A stretch of DNA of 35,910 bases, taken from IMG/VR virus record IMGVR_UViG_3300035670_000713, positions 1-35,910 of that record. One strand, written 5' to 3'. The position numbers and the translations under genes were made by a program. Of this stretch, positions 2,095 through 27,370 are shown one piece after another (positions within the stretch are counted from its first letter, which is position 1; each line of letters begins with the position of its first letter). Source of the stretch: a virus. The notes below the pieces were generated by a model. It ran no database searches and had not been told where the DNA came from. It saw only the letters and a program-made list of their open reading frames with translations.

Positions 2095-2185
2095 AGTGCG
2101 CCAGCCGGTAGTGCATGTCCCAGTCTGCGGCGGGGCTGTCGGATTCGGCAGCCGCGCCACAGATTAGGCAGCGGTATGAGCCCAC
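2000..2185 (-). CDS. Possible small C2H2-type zinc-finger protein
   Basis: A 61-codon frame starts with GTG overlapping the SSB stop codon. Its first 30 residues contain a C-x2-C...H-x4-H pattern (YRCLICG followed by MHYRLAH), a good zinc-finger spacing. This part lies entirely upstream of the HNH start, in what would otherwise be a roughly 90-base gap. The second half overlaps the HNH gene and is low in complexity, rich in Pro, Thr and Arg. The finger pattern and stop-start overlap favour a real gene; the 95-base overlap with the HNH gene argues against. Confidence 0.4.
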   Translation of the reverse strand: MGSYRCLICGAAAESDSPAADWDMHYRLAHYEAQPTTATKQTPRTRIPHLASAPRRRAPGR

Positions 2186-2622
2186 TAGAACGGGGCCTCG
2201 TCGAGTCCGTCGTGTGCGCCTGCAGTCGACCAGGGGTCGTCGTTGCTGGCATACGTGGCCTCCTGTCGGTCGACGCGCCGCGAGGTGGCGGCGTGCCGCT
2301 TCAGGTCTAGGGCGATCGAGTCCGCGTCGACTTCGGTGATCGACTTCGTCTCGCCGTCCTTCTCGTACTTTCTGGTCCTCAAGCGTCCGGTGACGGTCAC
2401 GGTGTCGCCTTTGCGCAGCGACTCGGTGACGTTCTCGGCGACTTGCCGCCAGGCGGTGATGTTGAGGAACGTGGGTTCGCCTTCTTCCCATTGGCCGGCG
2501 TCGTTCTTGCGGGCGTCGTTGCAGGCGATGGACAGGTTCGCTCGGGCTACGCCTGACTGGGTGAAGCTGAGGTCGGGGTCGCGGGTGAGGTTGCCGGTTG
2601 CGGTGATGCGGGGGAGTGCCAT
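2185..2622 (-). CDS. ssb: Single-stranded DNA-binding protein
   Basis: A 145-residue protein with the OB-fold signature of bacterial and phage SSB: MALPRITATGNLTRDPDL at the start, then ANLSIACNDARKN, FLNITAWRQVAENV and GDTVTVTGRLRTRKYE. The C-terminal tail is acidic and ends DEAPF, close to the DDxPF tip that binds partner proteins. It coats single-stranded DNA during replication and recombination. The ATG at 2620-2622 has a clear AGGAAA Shine-Dalgarno motif. The neighbouring ERF-like annealing protein, PD-(D/E)XK-like nuclease and HNH protein form a recombination/replication group. Confidence 0.93.
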   Translation of the reverse strand: MALPRITATGNLTRDPDLSFTQSGVARANLSIACNDARKNDAGQWEEGEPTFLNITAWRQVAENVTESLRKGDTVTVTGRLRTRKYEKDGETKSITEVDADSIALDLKRHAATSRRVDRQEATYASNDDPWSTAGAHDGLDEAPF

Positions 2623-2702
2623 GTGTGTTTCCTTTCGTGTGGGGTGTTGCAGTTGTCGATCATCCATGCCCCGCATGTGGGGCAGCGGGTCGGGGTGGTC
2701 AT
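2547..2702 (-). CDS. Possible small zinc-ribbon protein
   Basis: A 51-codon frame starts MTTPTRCPTCGAW, with further Cys and His in DNCNTPHERKHTWH, giving a CxxC...C...H...H set that could form a zinc ribbon. Its ATG at 2700-2702 overlaps the whiB stop as ATGA, the coupling used throughout this operon. The recognisable part covers the gap between whiB and ssb. The remainder overlaps the ssb start by about 75 bases and is low complexity. The gene is plausible but not certain. Confidence 0.4.
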   Translation of the reverse strand: MTTPTRCPTCGAWMIDNCNTPHERKHTWHSPASPQPATSPATPTSASPSQA

Positions 2703-6173: not shown

Positions 6174-6695
6174 CTACTGCCGCTTGAGGTCGACGACGTT
6201 GGCTGCGCGCCGGGCCCTGGATGCTTCCTGCCTGGCGGCGTCGAGGTCGCGGCGTGCAGCTGCACGGTCGGCTTCCAGGCGGTGGGCGCGGGCTAGCTCC
6301 CGCCAGTGGCAGACCTCGCACAACCCGGTCGTTGATCGCTCCTGTGGGCGTTCACTGCACGCCGGGCACAGGGGCTTCGGTCGGCCGTGGATGCGTTCGC
6401 GGACCTTTGCTTCGAGGGTGGCCATGTCGACCTGCCCGTCGAGGACCTGTTGACGTAGCTGCTCGAGGCGTTCGATCGGCACGCCGGCGCGTACCTGCTC
6501 GGCCCACCTGACGCGGCCGGGCTGCCCGAGGATGATGCCGCGCCTCTCGCCTGGCTTGCGGAGGCTGATGCGGTGACGTTGCGCTTGCCGCTTCACCGAG
6601 GGCAGGGACCGGTTCAGTACCTGGGCGATGTATTCCGCGCCGTGGTGCGCGTTCTGCCGCAGGATCGCGAGCTCCTGGGAGGTCCACTCCTTCAC
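6174..6695 (-). CDS. Myb/SANT-like HTH protein with zinc knuckle and coiled coil
   Basis: A 173-residue protein. Residues 1-45 (EWTSQELAILRQNAHHGAEY followed by IAQVLNRSLPSVKRQAQRH) form a homeodomain- or SANT-like helix-turn-helix. A middle linker (residues 50-105) includes ERLEQLRQQVLDGQVD. A CPAC...CEVCHW knuckle (about residues 117-137) follows, then a long charged Arg/Ala-rich helix to the end, probably a coiled coil. It probably binds DNA and may regulate early genes or act in replication. The GTG start at 6693-6695 overlaps the upstream stop (GTGA). No exact family is recognised. Confidence 0.68.
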   Translation of the reverse strand: MKEWTSQELAILRQNAHHGAEYIAQVLNRSLPSVKRQAQRHRISLRKPGERRGIILGQPGRVRWAEQVRAGVPIERLEQLRQQVLDGQVDMATLEAKVRERIHGRPKPLCPACSERPQERSTTGLCEVCHWRELARAHRLEADRAAARRDLDAARQEASRARRAANVVDLKRQ

Positions 6696-7045
6696 GACTG
6701 CACCTCCGTCCGCCGCGTGAACTCGAGAATCTTCGCGCGCACCTCCGGCGGCATCGGCACGCCTTTCGCGGCTTCCATCTCCCGCGCCTCGAGCGCCAGC
6801 TTGTCGGCTTGTTCGCGGCTGTACGCCCTCCACCGCTCGTTCAGGTGTGCCGGCATGATCGAGTCGGTCGACTCCTGGTAGTGGGCGACGACTGACCTGA
6901 TCGCGTAGTCGACGGTCATCTCGGGGCGCAGGGCTTGCGCCCACGCCATCGACCGGGCGTCAGCGTCCGCGTCGCTGGGTGGCCTGTGACGTTGATCGAA
7001 GGTCGCGGCGACGGCGAGGACTTTCGAGGCGTCGTCAGGGTTCAT
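6692..7045 (-). CDS. Replication-associated small helical protein
   Basis: A 117-residue protein with the pattern AATFDQR...AWAQALRPEMTVDYAIRSVVAHYQES...IMPAHLNERW. Small proteins with a VxxHYxxTxxxIMPAxI-like core are typical partners encoded next to the HTH replication protein in actinobacteriophages. A loader or adaptor role in replication initiation is an inference from position. It overlaps the initiator gene upstream by 4 bases (ATGA) and the SANT-like gene downstream by 4 bases, so all three are probably made together. Confidence 0.62.
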   Translation of the reverse strand: MNPDDASKVLAVAATFDQRHRPPSDADADARSMAWAQALRPEMTVDYAIRSVVAHYQESTDSIMPAHLNERWRAYSREQADKLALEAREMEAAKGVPMPPEVRAKILEFTRRTEVQS

Positions 7046-7845
7046 GAGTGTTCTCCTAGTGCGGCGATGGCGAGGTTGCTGGTCCTGCTGTCGAGGCGTT
7101 GGGAGGCCTCGAGGTACATCTGTGTCCCTGACTTGCGGCGGGTTCGGTAGTTGACGCCTTCGAGCTCGATGCGCAGCGCGTCGGTGGTGACCGGTCGGTT
7201 GTCTTCGGCCATGCGCGTGAGCGCGTCGATGATCTGCTCGTCGCTGTATCTGCCGGTGCGGACTGCTTTGCGGACGATGCCGGCGATCGCGGGGAAGTTC
7301 GACAGGGGCACCTGGTCGGTGTAGGTGCGGGTGAGGGCGTTGACTCGCTGCCCTTCCGTTGCCTGCGCGTCCGCTACTGCGGGCGCGGCAAAGGACGGTT
7401 CTGTCATGGATGGTTCTAAGGGATGGTTAGGGGTTAGGCGGGTGACCCCCGTGGCGTCGAAAAGTGACCCCCGTTCGGTCTGTTTCTGACCCCCGTCATC
7501 GCGGGGGTCACTCCACTGACCCCCGTCGATTTGTCGGTGTTTCGTCGACCCGTCGCAGTCCTGCGGGCAGGACACCAGGACCGTGTACCGGTTCGGTCGT
7601 CGATCGGCGCGCGTGTCGGAGTTGCCGCCGGCCTGAATGTCGACGCGTAGCTCGCCCATCGCGACGAGTTCCTGGATTGCCTGCTTGACCTTGCTCCTGG
7701 AGCACGCCCCGTATCGGCCGAGCGTCTCGATCGTGGGCCAGGCCCCACCGTCGCCGTCGTGGTTCGCGATCCCTAGCAGGATCAGTTTGTTGGTGCCTCG
7801 TGCTCTGCTGTGATGCAGGACGGCGGCCATCGCTTCGATGCTCAT
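7042..7845 (-). CDS. HTH replication initiator protein (DnaD/O-like)
   Basis: A 267-residue protein. Residues 1-70 (EAMAAVLHHSRARGTNKLIL to WPTIETLGRYGACSRSKVKQ and AIQELVAMGEL) form the winged-helix domain of phage replication proteins. A variable, Gly/Asp/Gln-rich linker (about 100-150) follows, then a C-terminal helical domain (residues 165-267, with YTDQVPLSNFPAIAGIVRKAV, DEQIIDALTRM). It probably binds the origin and recruits host helicase. The linker is encoded by DNA carrying four regularly placed 10-bp repeats, so the origin is likely inside this gene, as in lambda O. The ATG at 7843-7845 has no clear Shine-Dalgarno site. Confidence 0.78.
   Translation of the reverse strand: MSIEAMAAVLHHSRARGTNKLILLGIANHDGDGGAWPTIETLGRYGACSRSKVKQAIQELVAMGELRVDIQAGGNSDTRADRRPNRYTVLVSCPQDCDGSTKHRQIDGGQWSDPRDDGGQKQTERGSLFDATGVTRLTPNHPLEPSMTEPSFAAPAVADAQATEGQRVNALTRTYTDQVPLSNFPAIAGIVRKAVRTGRYSDEQIIDALTRMAEDNRPVTTDALRIELEGVNYRTRRKSGTQMYLEASQRLDSRTSNLAIAALGEHS
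7443..7526. repeat. Iteron-like repeats, candidate replication origin
   Basis: The 10-mer TGACCCCCGT occurs at 7443-7452, 7465-7474, 7487-7496 and 7517-7526. The first three are spaced exactly 22 bases apart, two helical turns, and the fourth 30 bases further. A reverse-orientation copy with one change (GCGGGGGTCA) lies at 7501-7510 between the third and fourth. The stretch just left (7405-7440) is relatively A+T- and G-rich and free of C runs, a possible unwinding region. Repeats of this kind inside an initiator gene are characteristic of phage origins; the role here is inferred. Confidence 0.68.
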
Positions 7846-8636: not shown

Positions 8637-8818
8637 GGTCGGACTCCTCCGGTGTTGTTCTCGAGCCAGGCGGTCAGGCTCGCGATGGGGATGCGGATGC
8701 GGCTGCCGATCCGTACGTGTGGGAAGTCGTCGTCGCGGATCAGGTCGTAGAGGGTGTTCTTGCTGAGCCCGAGGGCTTTGGCGGCCTCCGGGACGGTGAG
8801 GACGAGGCGGTCGCTCAT
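8633..8818 (-). CDS. xis: Excisionase / MerR-type HTH protein
   Basis: A 61-residue protein: LTVPEAAKALGLSKNTLYDLIRDDDFPHVRIGSRIRIPIASLTAWL is the compact winged HTH seen in phage excisionases (HTH_17 type). It is expected to bend DNA near attP and turn the integrase towards excision. It lies close to the integrase but on the opposite strand, just behind the Cro-like gene, so it would be made when the lytic promoter is on. Start and stop both overlap neighbours by 4 bases. Confidence 0.8.
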   Translation of the reverse strand: MSDRLVLTVPEAAKALGLSKNTLYDLIRDDDFPHVRIGSRIRIPIASLTAWLENNTGGVRP

Positions 8819-9027
8819 GCAGCCCCCTGGATGCGGGTGATCGCGTCGGGCTTGAGCCCGAGGGCTGCGGCGATCTTGCGGACGCTCGAGGGTCGGGCTG
8901 GGCTGCCGGCCTCGAGGCGGGCGATCGTCTCCCGTCGGACCCCTGCTGCCCGAGCGAGCTCGGACTGCGTCATGCACGCTTCTAGGCGGGCGCGCTTGAG
9001 GGCTTCGGGGACGACTGCGAGTTCCAT
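8815..9027 (-). CDS. Cro-like XRE-family repressor
   Basis: A 70-residue protein that is nearly all HTH: LKRARLEACMTQSELARAAG, VRRETIARLEAG, RPSSVRKIAAALGLKPD. This is the five-helix XRE fold of Cro/CI proteins without an extra dimer domain. As first gene of the minus-strand early operon, facing the plus-strand repressor gene across a shared operator region, it fits the Cro role of holding the lytic state. The ATG at 9025-9027 follows AAGGAGCACCACCTC, with a good AAGGAG motif. Confidence 0.82.
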   Translation of the reverse strand: MELAVVPEALKRARLEACMTQSELARAAGVRRETIARLEAGSPARPSSVRKIAAALGLKPDAITRIQGAA

Positions 9028-9052
9028 GAGGTGGTGCTCCTTGCTGCTCGGG

Positions 9053-9147
9053 GGTACGTGGCGCGTACCTGGGGTACGTTTGAGGTGACCGTACTACGGG
9101 TCTTGAGTGAGGGCTACGCGACACGCCGTAGGGCTACGTGCTACGTT
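9053..9147. promoter_or_regulatory. Divergent promoter region with TACG operator cluster
   Basis: The 193-base gap between the Cro-like gene and the plus-strand repressor is packed with (G/C)TACG half-sites in both orientations: 9054, 9064, 9074, 9090, 9094, 9114, 9127, 9134 and 9141. They form inverted repeats: GGTACG/CGTACC (9053-9058, 9064-9069), GTACG/CGTAC (9074-9078, 9090-9094), CTACG/CGTAG (9114-9118, 9127-9131) and CGTAG/CTACG (9127-9131, 9134-9138). A weak plus-strand promoter, GCGACA (9118-9123) and TACGTT (9142-9147), overlaps the last sites. These are probable binding sites of the two repressors. Confidence 0.6.
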
Positions 9148-9220
9148 CATGCGCGATGACCAGCACAGAGTCACGACGGAGCAGCACAGAAGTCGCCGCA
9201 GGATGCAGAGGATTTCTTCT

Positions 9221-9562
9221 ATGACCGACGGTCCTCTGATCGACCTGGCCGTGTTCGGCCGACACCTACGAGCCGCGCGCATCCTCGCCGGCTACGACAA
9301 CGTCGCCCCAGCCGCCGCCCACATCACCGAATGCACCGGGGTCCACGTAACCGAGCGCATACTCGGGGCGATCGAACGCGGCGACCAGATGCCCACCCTC
9401 GAGCAGTTCCTCGCCATCGGATACTGCCTCCGGCCCCCCGGTGGCGGAGCGTTCTGGGCCCCTGCCCTGCGCCCCGACATCGCGGCAGGCTGGGTCGAGG
9501 AGCTCGACGAACAGGAGGTCCGCAGACATGGCAAGCCTGCAGCACCGCCCGGACCGCTCTAA
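9221..9562 (+). CDS. Putative immunity repressor (XRE-like)
   Basis: A 113-residue protein. LAVFGRHLRAARILAGYDNV and VTERILGAIERGDQMPTLEQ surround a diverged HTH, with a longer than usual second loop (APAAAHITECTGVHVTER). LAIGYCLRPPGGGAFWAPAL follows. It probably represses the lytic promoter across the TACG cluster. I chose the ATG at 9221 because AGAGGA lies just upstream and the HTH begins soon after; a longer frame back to 9107 would run through the operators. The gene overlaps the integrase start by 35 bases, so both are made from one transcript. Confidence 0.68.
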   Translation: MTDGPLIDLAVFGRHLRAARILAGYDNVAPAAAHITECTGVHVTERILGAIERGDQMPTLEQFLAIGYCLRPPGGGAFWAPALRPDIAAGWVEELDEQEVRRHGKPAAPPGPL

Positions 9563-10652
9563 GCCGTGGCGGGTCCGGTGGCGTGACGCCCAGGGGCACG
9601 GCCAGTCGAAGGCGTTCGCCCGGAAGCGGGACGCCCTGACGTACCTGCACGACCTGGAGGTGCGCCTCGATCGCGGGCAGGCTGTGCGCCGAGACGCGGG
9701 CCGGGCAGGGTTCGGGGAACTCGCCGAGCAGTGGCTGGCGAACAAGGCCACCGCCGGACGCAAGCCGTCCACCGTCGCCGGGTACCGGTCGATCCTTGAC
9801 CACCTGGTGCTGCCGGAGTTCGGGCGGGAACCGGTCGGGGCGATCACGTACGCGCGGCTCACCGCGTGGGCGTCGACGCTCGAGCACCTGTCCGGGTCTC
9901 GACGTAGGCACGCGATCGGTGTCGTCGCCGGCGTCCTGGACCTGGCGATCAGGGTCGGGGAGATCGACAGCAACCCGGCGCGCCTCCTGGACATGCCGCG
10001 GGCCACACCTCGACGCCGGCACCGGTACCTCGACCACCGGAAGCTGCACACCCTGGCCGACGCGTGCGGCGACCACCGCGCCCTCGTCCTGCTGCTCGGG
10101 TACTGCGGGCTGCGCTGGGGTGAGGCGGTCGCACTGCGCGGAACGGACGTCGACCGGAGGCGGGGGCTGATTCACGTCGACCGGGCGCAGTCGGAGGTCC
10201 GGGGACGGCTGACCTACGTCGCGCCGAAGACCCACCAGCGGCGGGACGTGCCCGTGCCGGACCTGGTCCTCGACCTACTGCCGGACACCGGCGAGGGCCT
10301 TACCTTCACCGCGGCCCGTGGAGGCCCACTGAGGCACCGAAACTTCGTCAGGGATACATGGGACCCCGCGACCACTTCTAGCGGCTTGACGGGCCTCAGA
10401 TTGCACGAGCTGCGGCACACCGCCGCGAGCCTCGCCAGGGCAGCCGGTGCGGACGCGTTCGTCGTAGCTCGCATGCTCGGCCACGGGGACGCCTCGATCA
10501 CTGCCCGCACCTACGCAGACCTGTTCGACGTGGAGCTCGAGGTCATGCGCCGGCGGATGGATGCTGCAGCGGCCGCCGCGTTGGGTCACACTGGGGCCAC
10601 ACCAGAACGTGAAACTGGGGGACATTGGGGGACGCGGAGGGACGTAGGGTAG
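9528..10652 (+). CDS. int: Tyrosine recombinase integrase
   Basis: A 374-residue phage integrase. The N-terminal part includes an AP2-like arm-binding region (RWRDAQGHGQSKAFARKRDA), then a SAM-like core-binding domain (about 60-155). The catalytic domain shows R196 (GLRWGEA), H293 and R296 (HELRHTAAS), H319 (MLGH) and the nucleophile Y329 (TARTYADLF). It joins attP to a host attB. The ATG at 9528-9530 has a perfect AGGAGGT eight bases upstream. The 3' end of the gene encodes repeated TGGG motifs at DNA level that may be arm sites, and a tRNA gene follows within 40 bases, the expected attP location. Confidence 0.95.
   Translation: MASLQHRPDRSKPWRVRWRDAQGHGQSKAFARKRDALTYLHDLEVRLDRGQAVRRDAGRAGFGELAEQWLANKATAGRKPSTVAGYRSILDHLVLPEFGREPVGAITYARLTAWASTLEHLSGSRRRHAIGVVAGVLDLAIRVGEIDSNPARLLDMPRATPRRRHRYLDHRKLHTLADACGDHRALVLLLGYCGLRWGEAVALRGTDVDRRRGLIHVDRAQSEVRGRLTYVAPKTHQRRDVPVPDLVLDLLPDTGEGLTFTAARGGPLRHRNFVRDTWDPATTSSGLTGLRLHELRHTAASLARAAGADAFVVARMLGHGDASITARTYADLFDVELEVMRRRMDAAAAAALGHTGATPERETGGHWGTRRDVG
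10582..10635. repeat. Tandem TGGG-type repeats, candidate integrase arm sites (left)
   Basis: Within the 3' end of int there are two tandem pairs: TGGGTCACAC (10582-10591) with TGGGGCCACAC (10592-10602), and TGGGGGACAT (10616-10625) with TGGGGGACGC (10626-10635). The first pair matches the exact tandem repeat on the far side of the tRNA at 10825-10846 in sequence, orientation and spacing. Paired direct repeats flanking a core are how lambda-type integrases mark attP arms. Confidence 0.5.
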
Positions 10653-26533: not shown

Positions 26534-27370
26534 TCAGAGCTCGAGCAGTTCGAGTAGCTCGTCTTCGTGCCAGCCGCGCAGCCACACCTGGCCCTTGACC
26601 TGTCCGCGTGTCGATGCGCCTCGCCGGGTGGTGCGTCCGGTGAGTCCTGCGCGTCCTTGTGCGCGTCCGTCGACGGTGCACGACCCGGTGGTATCCCCGC
26701 GGTATACGCAGCGGCCGACGAGCGTGCCGCGGACGGTCGTGACGGGTGAGGTGACGCGGCCTGTGACGATGCGCGGACCGATGACGGGCGTCGGCCTGTA
26801 GCCTCCTGCGCCGCCTTGCGGAATGGGGTCCGGTTCCGGTGCAGGATGGGGTGCGTCTTGGGTGCCTGTCGCAGTACCAGTAACGGTCGAGGAGCCGGAC
26901 ACGCTGCCGGCGAGTGCAGGAATGCCGGACGTCGTGCCCGTGGACGTACTGGAGCCCGCAACGGTTCCACCGATGCCGGGCGTACCCGTCGCGGTGCCCG
27001 TCGTGGTGATAAGACCTGCTATCGCGCCGACGTTCTGCTCGATGCCCGTGACCGTGCCTGTGAGGGTCGTGGAGCCGTTGACGCTGCCCAGGTAGCCGAC
27101 GGTGCCCGTCGCGGTTCCCGTAGCCGTGGTGTTGCCCGTGGCGGCACCTGTGCGGGTCGCTGTACCGGTGGCGGTGCCGGTGACGGTGGTGCTGCCGGTC
27201 GCAGTTCCTGCGCGGGCCGCTGTGCCGGTCGCCGTGCCGGTGACGATGGTCGTGCCCGAGGCGGTGCCAGTGAGGGCAGGCTCGAGCTCAAGGTCGGCAT
27301 AGGTCAGCGACCCTGGGATCAACCCGTAGGTCGCGTACTGAGCGGCGAGCTCGGAATACAGGCGGGCCAT
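26534..27370 (-). CDS. Protein of tandem 20-residue Thr/Gly repeats
   Basis: A 278-residue protein. Residues 1-27 contain aromatic motifs (LYSELAAQYATYG, TYADLE). Residues 46-165 are six consecutive 20-residue repeats with the pattern TATGTxxxxG then (S/T)(A/V)xGSTTVTG; parts of a further copy lie on each side. A Pro-rich hinge (about 172-186) follows, then a basic beta-type region (RIVTGRVTSPVTTVRGTLVG) ending HEDELLELLEL. Regular Gly/Thr repeats suggest a beta-solenoid or extended fibre on the head, but no family is recognised. It ends 10 bases before the next gene's ATG. Confidence 0.72.
   Translation of the reverse strand: MARLYSELAAQYATYGLIPGSLTYADLELEPALTGTASGTTIVTGTATGTAARAGTATGSTTVTGTATGTATRTGAATGNTTATGTATGTVGYLGSVNGSTTLTGTVTGIEQNVGAIAGLITTTGTATGTPGIGGTVAGSSTSTGTTSGIPALAGSVSGSSTVTGTATGTQDAPHPAPEPDPIPQGGAGGYRPTPVIGPRIVTGRVTSPVTTVRGTLVGRCVYRGDTTGSCTVDGRAQGRAGLTGRTTRRGASTRGQVKGQVWLRGWHEDELLELLEL
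26861..27295 (-). repeat. 60-bp coding repeats
   Basis: The DNA here repeats with a period of 60 bases, matching the 20-residue protein repeats (six complete and partial ones at both ends). The copies are diverged in DNA, with mixed GTN/ACN codons, so they are an old duplication. Such arrays can change copy number by recombination. Confidence 0.7.

Follow-up and report, generated by a model that had tools for sequence, protein, structure and literature searches.

Why does a short DNA word recur at fixed spacing inside a protein-coding gene, and could it mark a starting point of viral DNA replication? The question is raised by a stretch of 35,910 nucleotides (here called the window; IMG/VR record IMGVR_UViG_3300035670_000713, positions 1 to 35,910), in which the repeats lie in the middle of a replication initiator gene. 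A preliminary description of this DNA had proposed an iteron-type origin inside the initiator gene, and the computational analysis supports that proposal; that the site would fire replication is read from its anatomy and from precedent. We consider it very probable that the repeats act as iterons and that the initiator gene contains, in the part coding for its disordered linker, a replication origin at which an AT tract would open, AACC words would be held and a helicase would be brought in.

Phased repeats in an initiator gene

The gene, its repeats and its downstream neighbour are arranged as follows.

7042 to 7845, minus strand: O-like replication initiator gene, 267 amino acids, with winged helix, disordered linker and C-terminal helical domain (open reading frame, HTH_36, phrog_8540, AlphaFold2 model)
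7561 to 7845, minus strand: winged-helix DNA-binding domain, codons 1-95, the putative iteron reader (model and HTH_36 match)
7657 to 7698, minus strand: recognition helix, codons 50-63, whose residues 52, 54 and 55 covary with the iteron sequence (permutation tests and model)
7517 to 7526, minus strand: iteron 1 in gene order, ACGGGGGTCA on the gene strand, read DGGQ (word search)
7501 to 7510, plus strand: inverted iteron with one mismatch, TGACCCCCGC on the gene strand, read SDPR (word search); degraded to TGACCGCCG in the relative L003
7487 to 7496, minus strand: iteron 2, ACGGGGGTCA on the gene strand, read DGGQ (word search)
7465 to 7474, minus strand: iteron 3, ACGGGGGTCA on the gene strand, read RGS (word search)
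7443 to 7452, minus strand: iteron 4, ACGGGGGTCA on the gene strand, read TGV (word search)
7054 to 7356, minus strand: C-terminal helical domain, codons 164-264 (model)
6692 to 7045, minus strand: small open reading frame overlapping the initiator stop (ATGA), a conserved neighbour (phrog_8924/6055, PHROGs without assigned function)

The initiator matches HTH_36 (PF13730) over residues 18-64 (E 2e-7, 31.1 bits against a gathering cut-off of 25) and phrog_8540, named 'replication initiation O-like', at E 2e-29. In an AlphaFold2 model with 49 family members as input (mean pLDDT 80), the N-terminal part shows helices at residues 17-28, 39-46 and 50-63 and wing strands at 66-69 and 86-89. Since residues 108-157 lie mostly below pLDDT 50 and the iterons occupy codons 107-135, about 320-400 nt into the gene, the iterons are encoded within a disordered linker, where the preliminary description had placed them. 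The architecture of initiator domain, linker and C-terminal domain found in the lambda O type of arrangement is present, as judged by HTH_36, the O-like PHROG and the model, and by analogy the C-terminal domain may recruit a helicase or its loader.

No RepA_N domain (PF06970) was found in this protein; apart from HTH_36, a Pfam scan down to E 10 yielded just one match, to DnaD_N, which was below threshold (E 0.022). NCBIfam had no usable match for the initiator or for open reading frame 6692-7045, a sequence search of solved structures with the initiator gave nothing significant (best E 0.069), and Foldseek on its model returned no match with E < 0.001. A fold search (VIA) returned 4pql at Z 7.2, which we take to be a RepA_N structure, and 4pt7 at Z 7.5, both level with many unrelated winged helices. 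The entry 4pt7 is described as a RepA_N structure in the text available to us (PMC7145576).

On the plus strand the repeat TGACCCCCGT occurs exactly four times, at 7443-7452, 7465-7474, 7487-7496 and 7517-7526, the first three copies being exactly 22 apart and the fourth 30 beyond the third, so that the coordinates and spacing first reported hold to the base. The reverse copy reported between the third and fourth is indeed present at 7501-7510 and is inexact, its last base being different. All three codon frames are used: the translation of ACGGGGGTCA is DGGQ twice, RGS once and TGV once, and that of the inverted copy is SDPR. No further exact TGACCCCCGT exists on either strand in the whole 35,910 bases, and when any 10-mer occurring at least three times per 100-base segment was sought (step 10, strands pooled), the sole run of segment starts was 7401-7461. 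At up to two mismatches TGACCCCCGT is found 50 times across the window against 55.6 expected, which is chance frequency, so the non-random part is the clustering; window-wide abundance was accordingly rejected as evidence. The linker repeat score is 45, the maximum in 40 dinucleotide shuffles being 27.

Relatives of the downstream frame 6692-7045 lie downstream of the initiator in the seven loci inspected (L003, L004, L096, L097, L006, L009 and L099) and share invariant L, D, R, W, H, Y and MP residues. It is a possible helicase loader or other replication partner. As a counterpart of the helicase-loader gene of the lambda P type it is a candidate. Pfam gave nothing relevant on eight members, and the PHROGs matched have no assigned function; a G39P-like loader, which we had suspected from sequence patterns, was not adopted as its identity, there being no relevant Pfam match among the eight.

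Elsewhere in the window, a Cro/CI-type helix-turn-helix gene (8815-9027, minus strand) and a tyrosine integrase gene (9441-10652, plus strand) form an immunity and integration block (8815-10652), by which the window is apparently from a temperate phage or a prophage. A single-strand binding protein is encoded at 2185-2676 (minus strand). The open reading frame 26534-27370 (minus strand) contains a long run of TGTATGTTTVTGTATG-like threonine/glycine repeats and is possibly a fibrous tail protein.

Conservation of the arrays as DNA

Homologues were collected from viral contig scans, one bacterial-genome scan and named phages, giving at least 151 distinct genes, or 116 clusters at 85% N-terminal identity. 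The bacterial-genome scan contributed 17 loci, all actinobacterial and mostly from Microbacteriaceae. Repeats were scored in nt 256-510 of each gene, a choice fixed after the first 79 genes had been inspected. The linker array exceeded all 50 dinucleotide shuffles in 93 of the 116 clusters, 23 being without such an array, and all 50 synonymous recodings of the gene's own protein in 75. As a control, the N-terminal part of the same genes was compared with 15 synonymous shuffles and outscored every one of them in 10 of 116 clusters, roughly what chance gives. The 74 genes passing both shuffle tests carry a median of 5 copies (range 4-10); same-strand neighbours are 22-24 nt apart in 132 of 257 cases and 19 nt apart in 38, with inverted partners at 11 and 13 nt. 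Across the family the iterons themselves are GC-rich.

The closest relative, L003, has a protein 74% identical to that of the window, and 48 of 50 iteron columns are identical, including 16 of 17 third codon positions. Third positions outside the iterons agree at 52 of 100 in the N-terminal part, 67 of 122 in the C-terminal part and 15 of 26 in the rest of the linker. Of the five copies the reverse one is conserved least, and it accounts for both iteron mismatches. Relatives thus keep the DNA repeats while the linker peptide varies, a comparison that the preliminary description had suggested, and its view that the DNA was more likely selected than the protein is supported by the kept third positions, by the arrays that no synonymous shuffle reaches and by the reading of one word in more than one frame, which occurs in 101 of 117 same-strand repeat sets. 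The same three observations largely refute, and leave with a negligible chance, the idea that the repeats reflect selection on a repetitive Gly/Pro-rich peptide, even though many relatives have a linker that is repetitive at the protein level and the median score is slightly higher in synonymous (21.7) than in dinucleotide (18.5) shuffles. Phased repeats in linker-coding DNA, selected as DNA, are a feature of the lambda O type of arrangement and are found here.

The recognition helix and the repeat sequence

The iteron word varies among the phages around a common core, which takes the forms GTCACCC, GACACCC, TTCACCC and GCCACCC; in GACCCCC (the window) and GTCCCCC the A is replaced by C. Repeat similarity was compared with each column of the N-terminal alignment for pairs less than 50% identical. 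Residues 52, 55 and 54 took ranks 1 to 3 of 89 testable columns, their scores being reached by 0, 6 and 10 of 3000 permutation maxima, and they form the start of the recognition helix in the AlphaFold2 model. With pairs below 40% identity only, residues 52 and 55 were still on top (0 and 2 of 3000), while residue 54 dropped to fourth (207 of 3000) after residue 81 (46 of 3000). Residues 76, 81 and 87, outside the helix, have moderate scores, so some shared ancestry remains in the signal. The mean iteron similarity was 4.08 for pairs below 35% identity with matching residues at positions 54 and 55 (n=76), and 3.54 for pairs at least 65% identical that differ at these positions (n=399).

Individual residues go with individual bases, in tables whose core extraction is biased to CACC-type cores. 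Of the 93 arrays, 16 could not be assigned a core and another, with a CGGGG core, was left out; the table for residue 55 has 47 rows: lysine occurs with GA in 18 and with GT in none, arginine with GA in 3 and with GT in 26 (Fisher p 3e-10). At residue 54, glutamine goes with A in 54 of 57 cases and arginine with C in 6 of 7, lysine being mixed (5 A and 3 C). The best tree was computed with the helix left out; on it, residue and base switch in step in 9 independent K/R pairs, in opposite senses in none and not in step in 1. The tree is poorly resolved, and the 4 pairs on well-supported branches (on average 3.6 agreeing, none opposing) are too few for significance. Read by eye on newly found distant genes, the rule fits L280 and L258 and fails L334, L296 and L304.

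The iteron word thus varies with recognition-helix residues 52, 54 and 55, and most likely the N-terminal domain binds the repeats carried by the gene that encodes it. We regard the case for this probable binding, drawn from sequence comparison, as strong, and the exact residue-base code as provisional.

The adjoining tract and the origin reading

The iterons are followed, in the sense of the gene, by a second set of features.

7383 to 7442, minus strand: AT-enriched tract right after the last iteron, a candidate unwinding element (41.7% AT against 35.4% for the gene)
7421 to 7428, minus strand: AACCATCC, copy 1, read NHP (word search)
7408 to 7415, minus strand: AACCATCC, copy 2, read EPS (word search)
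7393 to 7400, minus strand: AACCGTCC, copy 3, read EPS (word search)

The AT enrichment of this tract is modest in the window. In the family mean an AT-rich region beside the iterons, as in the lambda O type of arrangement, is clear, the AT excess after the array being +0.10, +0.18 and +0.07 in successive 20-nt bins (91-92 genes) with its peak at +20 to +40. This tract and the family-wide AACC(A/G)TCC repeat within it, beside the iterons, go beyond the preliminary description. The copies in the window lie 13 and 15 nt apart; in the family the distance is mostly 11-13 nt, and 11, 12 and 13 nt are the commonest spacings when one mismatch is allowed. Between nt 331 and 560 of the 116 genes, AACC(A/G)TCC occurs 119 times, against 15.9 +/- 3.6 copies (maximum 27) in 200 synonymous shuffles, with at least one copy in 74 genes and at least two in 33. 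Outside nt 331-560 of these genes no AACCATCC was found, and none on the reverse strand within the segment; within one mismatch it is absent from 16 of the 116.

As the segment (nt 330-560) was picked after the word had been seen, the independent test is a blind scan of viral contigs for two AACC(A/G)TCC words, together with a permuted-word control. Among the matches listed, 29 of 120 contigs had a site in an initiator open reading frame and 38 of 139 sites lay in winged-helix frames, all in the sense direction; among the matches listed for the control (120 contigs, 127 sites) none lay in an initiator frame. The profile used for initiator frames was built from this winged-helix family, so that initiators of other types would escape it. 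An array just upstream that exceeds 40 shuffles is present in 22 of 25 genes found by AACC(A/G)TCC alone among the first 80 loci listed. The word pair occurs 8 times in 17 actinobacterial genomes, 6 times within the initiator gene, once at a contig end and once elsewhere. In the Leucobacter genome that holds L095, a second AACCGTCC-AACCATCC pair sits at the very end of another contig (G017, contig C9:24-42), perhaps because this prophage gene is present twice or because the assembly breaks there. By these computational tests both repeat sets, the iterons and AACC(A/G)TCC, are under DNA-level selection.

Could the words instead encode a conserved peptide (EPS/KPS) that the protein needs? They are read mostly as EPS/KPS in 76 of the 119 copies, and Aeromonas AsXd-1 and Vibrio D77, which have AACCAGTC-like words in place of the AACC word, retain EPV-like codons under this other DNA word. 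The remaining 43 copies, however, fall in the other two frames (23 as NHP/NRP and 20 as xTI/xTV), the 11-nt spacing moves the frame with each copy (DRTV-LEPS-LNRP in L320, for example), and the peptide does not account for the excess over the synonymous shuffles; we therefore hold this explanation to be rather unlikely. It is a real possibility, put forward tentatively, that AACC(A/G)TCC is a previously undescribed, phylum-crossing origin-opening element, hidden in coding sequence as EPS, NHP or TI and read single-stranded by the initiator or a loader, a role that we liken to the reading of DnaA-trios as single strand by DnaA. The literature search, whose results were dominated by unrelated oligonucleotides, gave no description of such an element among the titles listed, and its novelty is likely rather than established.

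The word also turns up at other places. AACCATC occurs three times in Vibrio phage 1.236.O and once in Vibrio p42, and AACC(A/G)TC was not found on the sense strand of lambda O, TP901-1 or Tuc2009. Tandem AACCATCC in the sense direction lies in a different type of open reading frame (MENxKxGHFxLFRSLL...) at L321:3929-3948 and L325:1472-1491; these frames presumably resemble enterobacterial O proteins, and the element may be wider than the winged-helix family. Four perfect AACCATCCATCA-type units at L283:428-471, in an unrelated frame (KPSIKPSIKPS), are probably a simple tandem duplication and not an origin.

Taken as an origin, the locus would work as follows. Several copies of the initiator would bind the 22-base-spaced iterons through the N-terminal winged helix, with residues 52, 54 and 55 of the recognition helix reading the core GAC-CCCC. 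The bound initiators would load strain on the AT-enriched tract just downstream in the gene sense, the tract would open, and the initiator or a partner would keep the strand-specific AACC(A/G)TCC array single-stranded, while the C-terminal domain would bring in the host helicase. We infer binding, melting, single-strand recognition, helicase loading and the start of replication at this site. Lambda O, the Rep proteins of pSK41 and pPR9, and RK2 TrfA are the models for all of these steps except iteron binding, for which the covariation speaks. The order and spacing of iterons, then AT tract with one-strand words, are conserved in the family. GC skew was dropped as origin evidence, the cumulative skew over the window having no clean turn at 7.4 kb.

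The covariation indicates only probable binding and not its effect, and it would also suit an operator array for autoregulation, with which the initiator would throttle transcription of its own gene while replication starts elsewhere. An array that deep in the gene, followed across the family by an AT-enriched tract with one-strand repeats mostly 11-13 nt apart, nevertheless fits an origin better, and in lambda O, Tuc2009 and pSK41 the comparable site is an origin, which makes the operator improbable. Direct repeats with a period of 22 bases also occur at parS-like sites, as would suit a site for partition (a centromere) or for packaging, placed within the gene by chance; here the repeat sequence tracks the recognition helix of the initiator, and the neighbouring open reading frames scanned with Pfam and PHROG include no partition gene, so that such a site is very improbable.

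An origin inside the initiator gene, the preferred reading of this locus, is an already known arrangement, and the literature searched gave no description of an origin in this phage group. In lambda, the initiator O has an N-terminal DNA-binding domain and the iterons lie in the middle of gene O, followed by an AT-rich tract, as stated in the available parts of two reports (PMC7466680, PMC6022878). The window shares these features, and the repeat detector used here recovers the lambda O iterons; the parallel drawn in the preliminary description is supported. The lambda iterons (ITN1-4) differ in being 18-base inverted repeats that bind O dimers (available text of PMC6022878), and lambda O has no AACC(A/G)TC on the sense strand; in sequence the link is the 'O-like' name of the PHROG. 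In pSK41, the Rep boxes are central in the rep gene and bound by the N-terminal winged helix, and the linker domain is dispensable as protein; pPR9 Rep has an HTH_36 (pfam13730) N-terminus, and its N-terminal domain and ori differ from those of pSK41 as one block in a replicon that works (both from the available text of PMC5703833). The central repeats and the HTH_36 N-terminus of pPR9 are shared with the window, whereas the RepA_N boxes hold an A+T tract and the iterons here are G+C-rich, these replicons are plasmids and not phages, and the window protein has no RepA_N match. The Rep gene of Tuc2009 is annotated as containing the origin and TP901-1 Rep as an experimental replication protein; both differ in a DnaD-like annotation and in the absence of the AACC(A/G)TC word. 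RK2 TrfA is a winged-helix initiator that binds iterons and, in the unwinding element of oriV, also a single strand of the repeated 13-mers (available text of PMC4081077), a precedent for the proposed role of AACC(A/G)TCC that differs in initiator family and repeat, single-strand binding being only proposed here. Mycobacterial RepA prophages were set aside as a comparison, since the available text of the report states that its authors found no repeats (PMC7157519). The whole would be a lambda-O/RepA_N-type origin with an apparently unreported strand-specific unwinding element.

For small actinobacterial phages, which form a large group, such a locus offers a definite origin that can be put to the test. 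It also offers natural material in which the specificity of the initiator and the sequence of the origin would have changed jointly many times. Phased iterons followed by AACC(A/G)TCC words provide a sequence signature for computational phage-origin finding; if true, the AACC element and the rule linking iteron and recognition helix would let origins and specificities be read from very many uncharacterised phage genomes.

Among named phages, gene 22/25 of Arthrobacter cluster AN (Toulouse and Laila) and gene 22 of Curtobacterium phage Root encode a homologous winged helix (45-57% identity), annotated merely as a helix-turn-helix protein in most records, with AACCATC words after the repeat region. 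The array of Root is clear, while those of cluster AN are weak, not significant in Kels (L077) and borderline in Toulouse (L074) and Laila (L075), the linkers of all three holding mixed repeats of CGACACC words and the CCCCGGGG type. Kels has AACCA words after its linker repeats. Phages of cluster AN, described as being without replication genes, do carry an initiator homologue.
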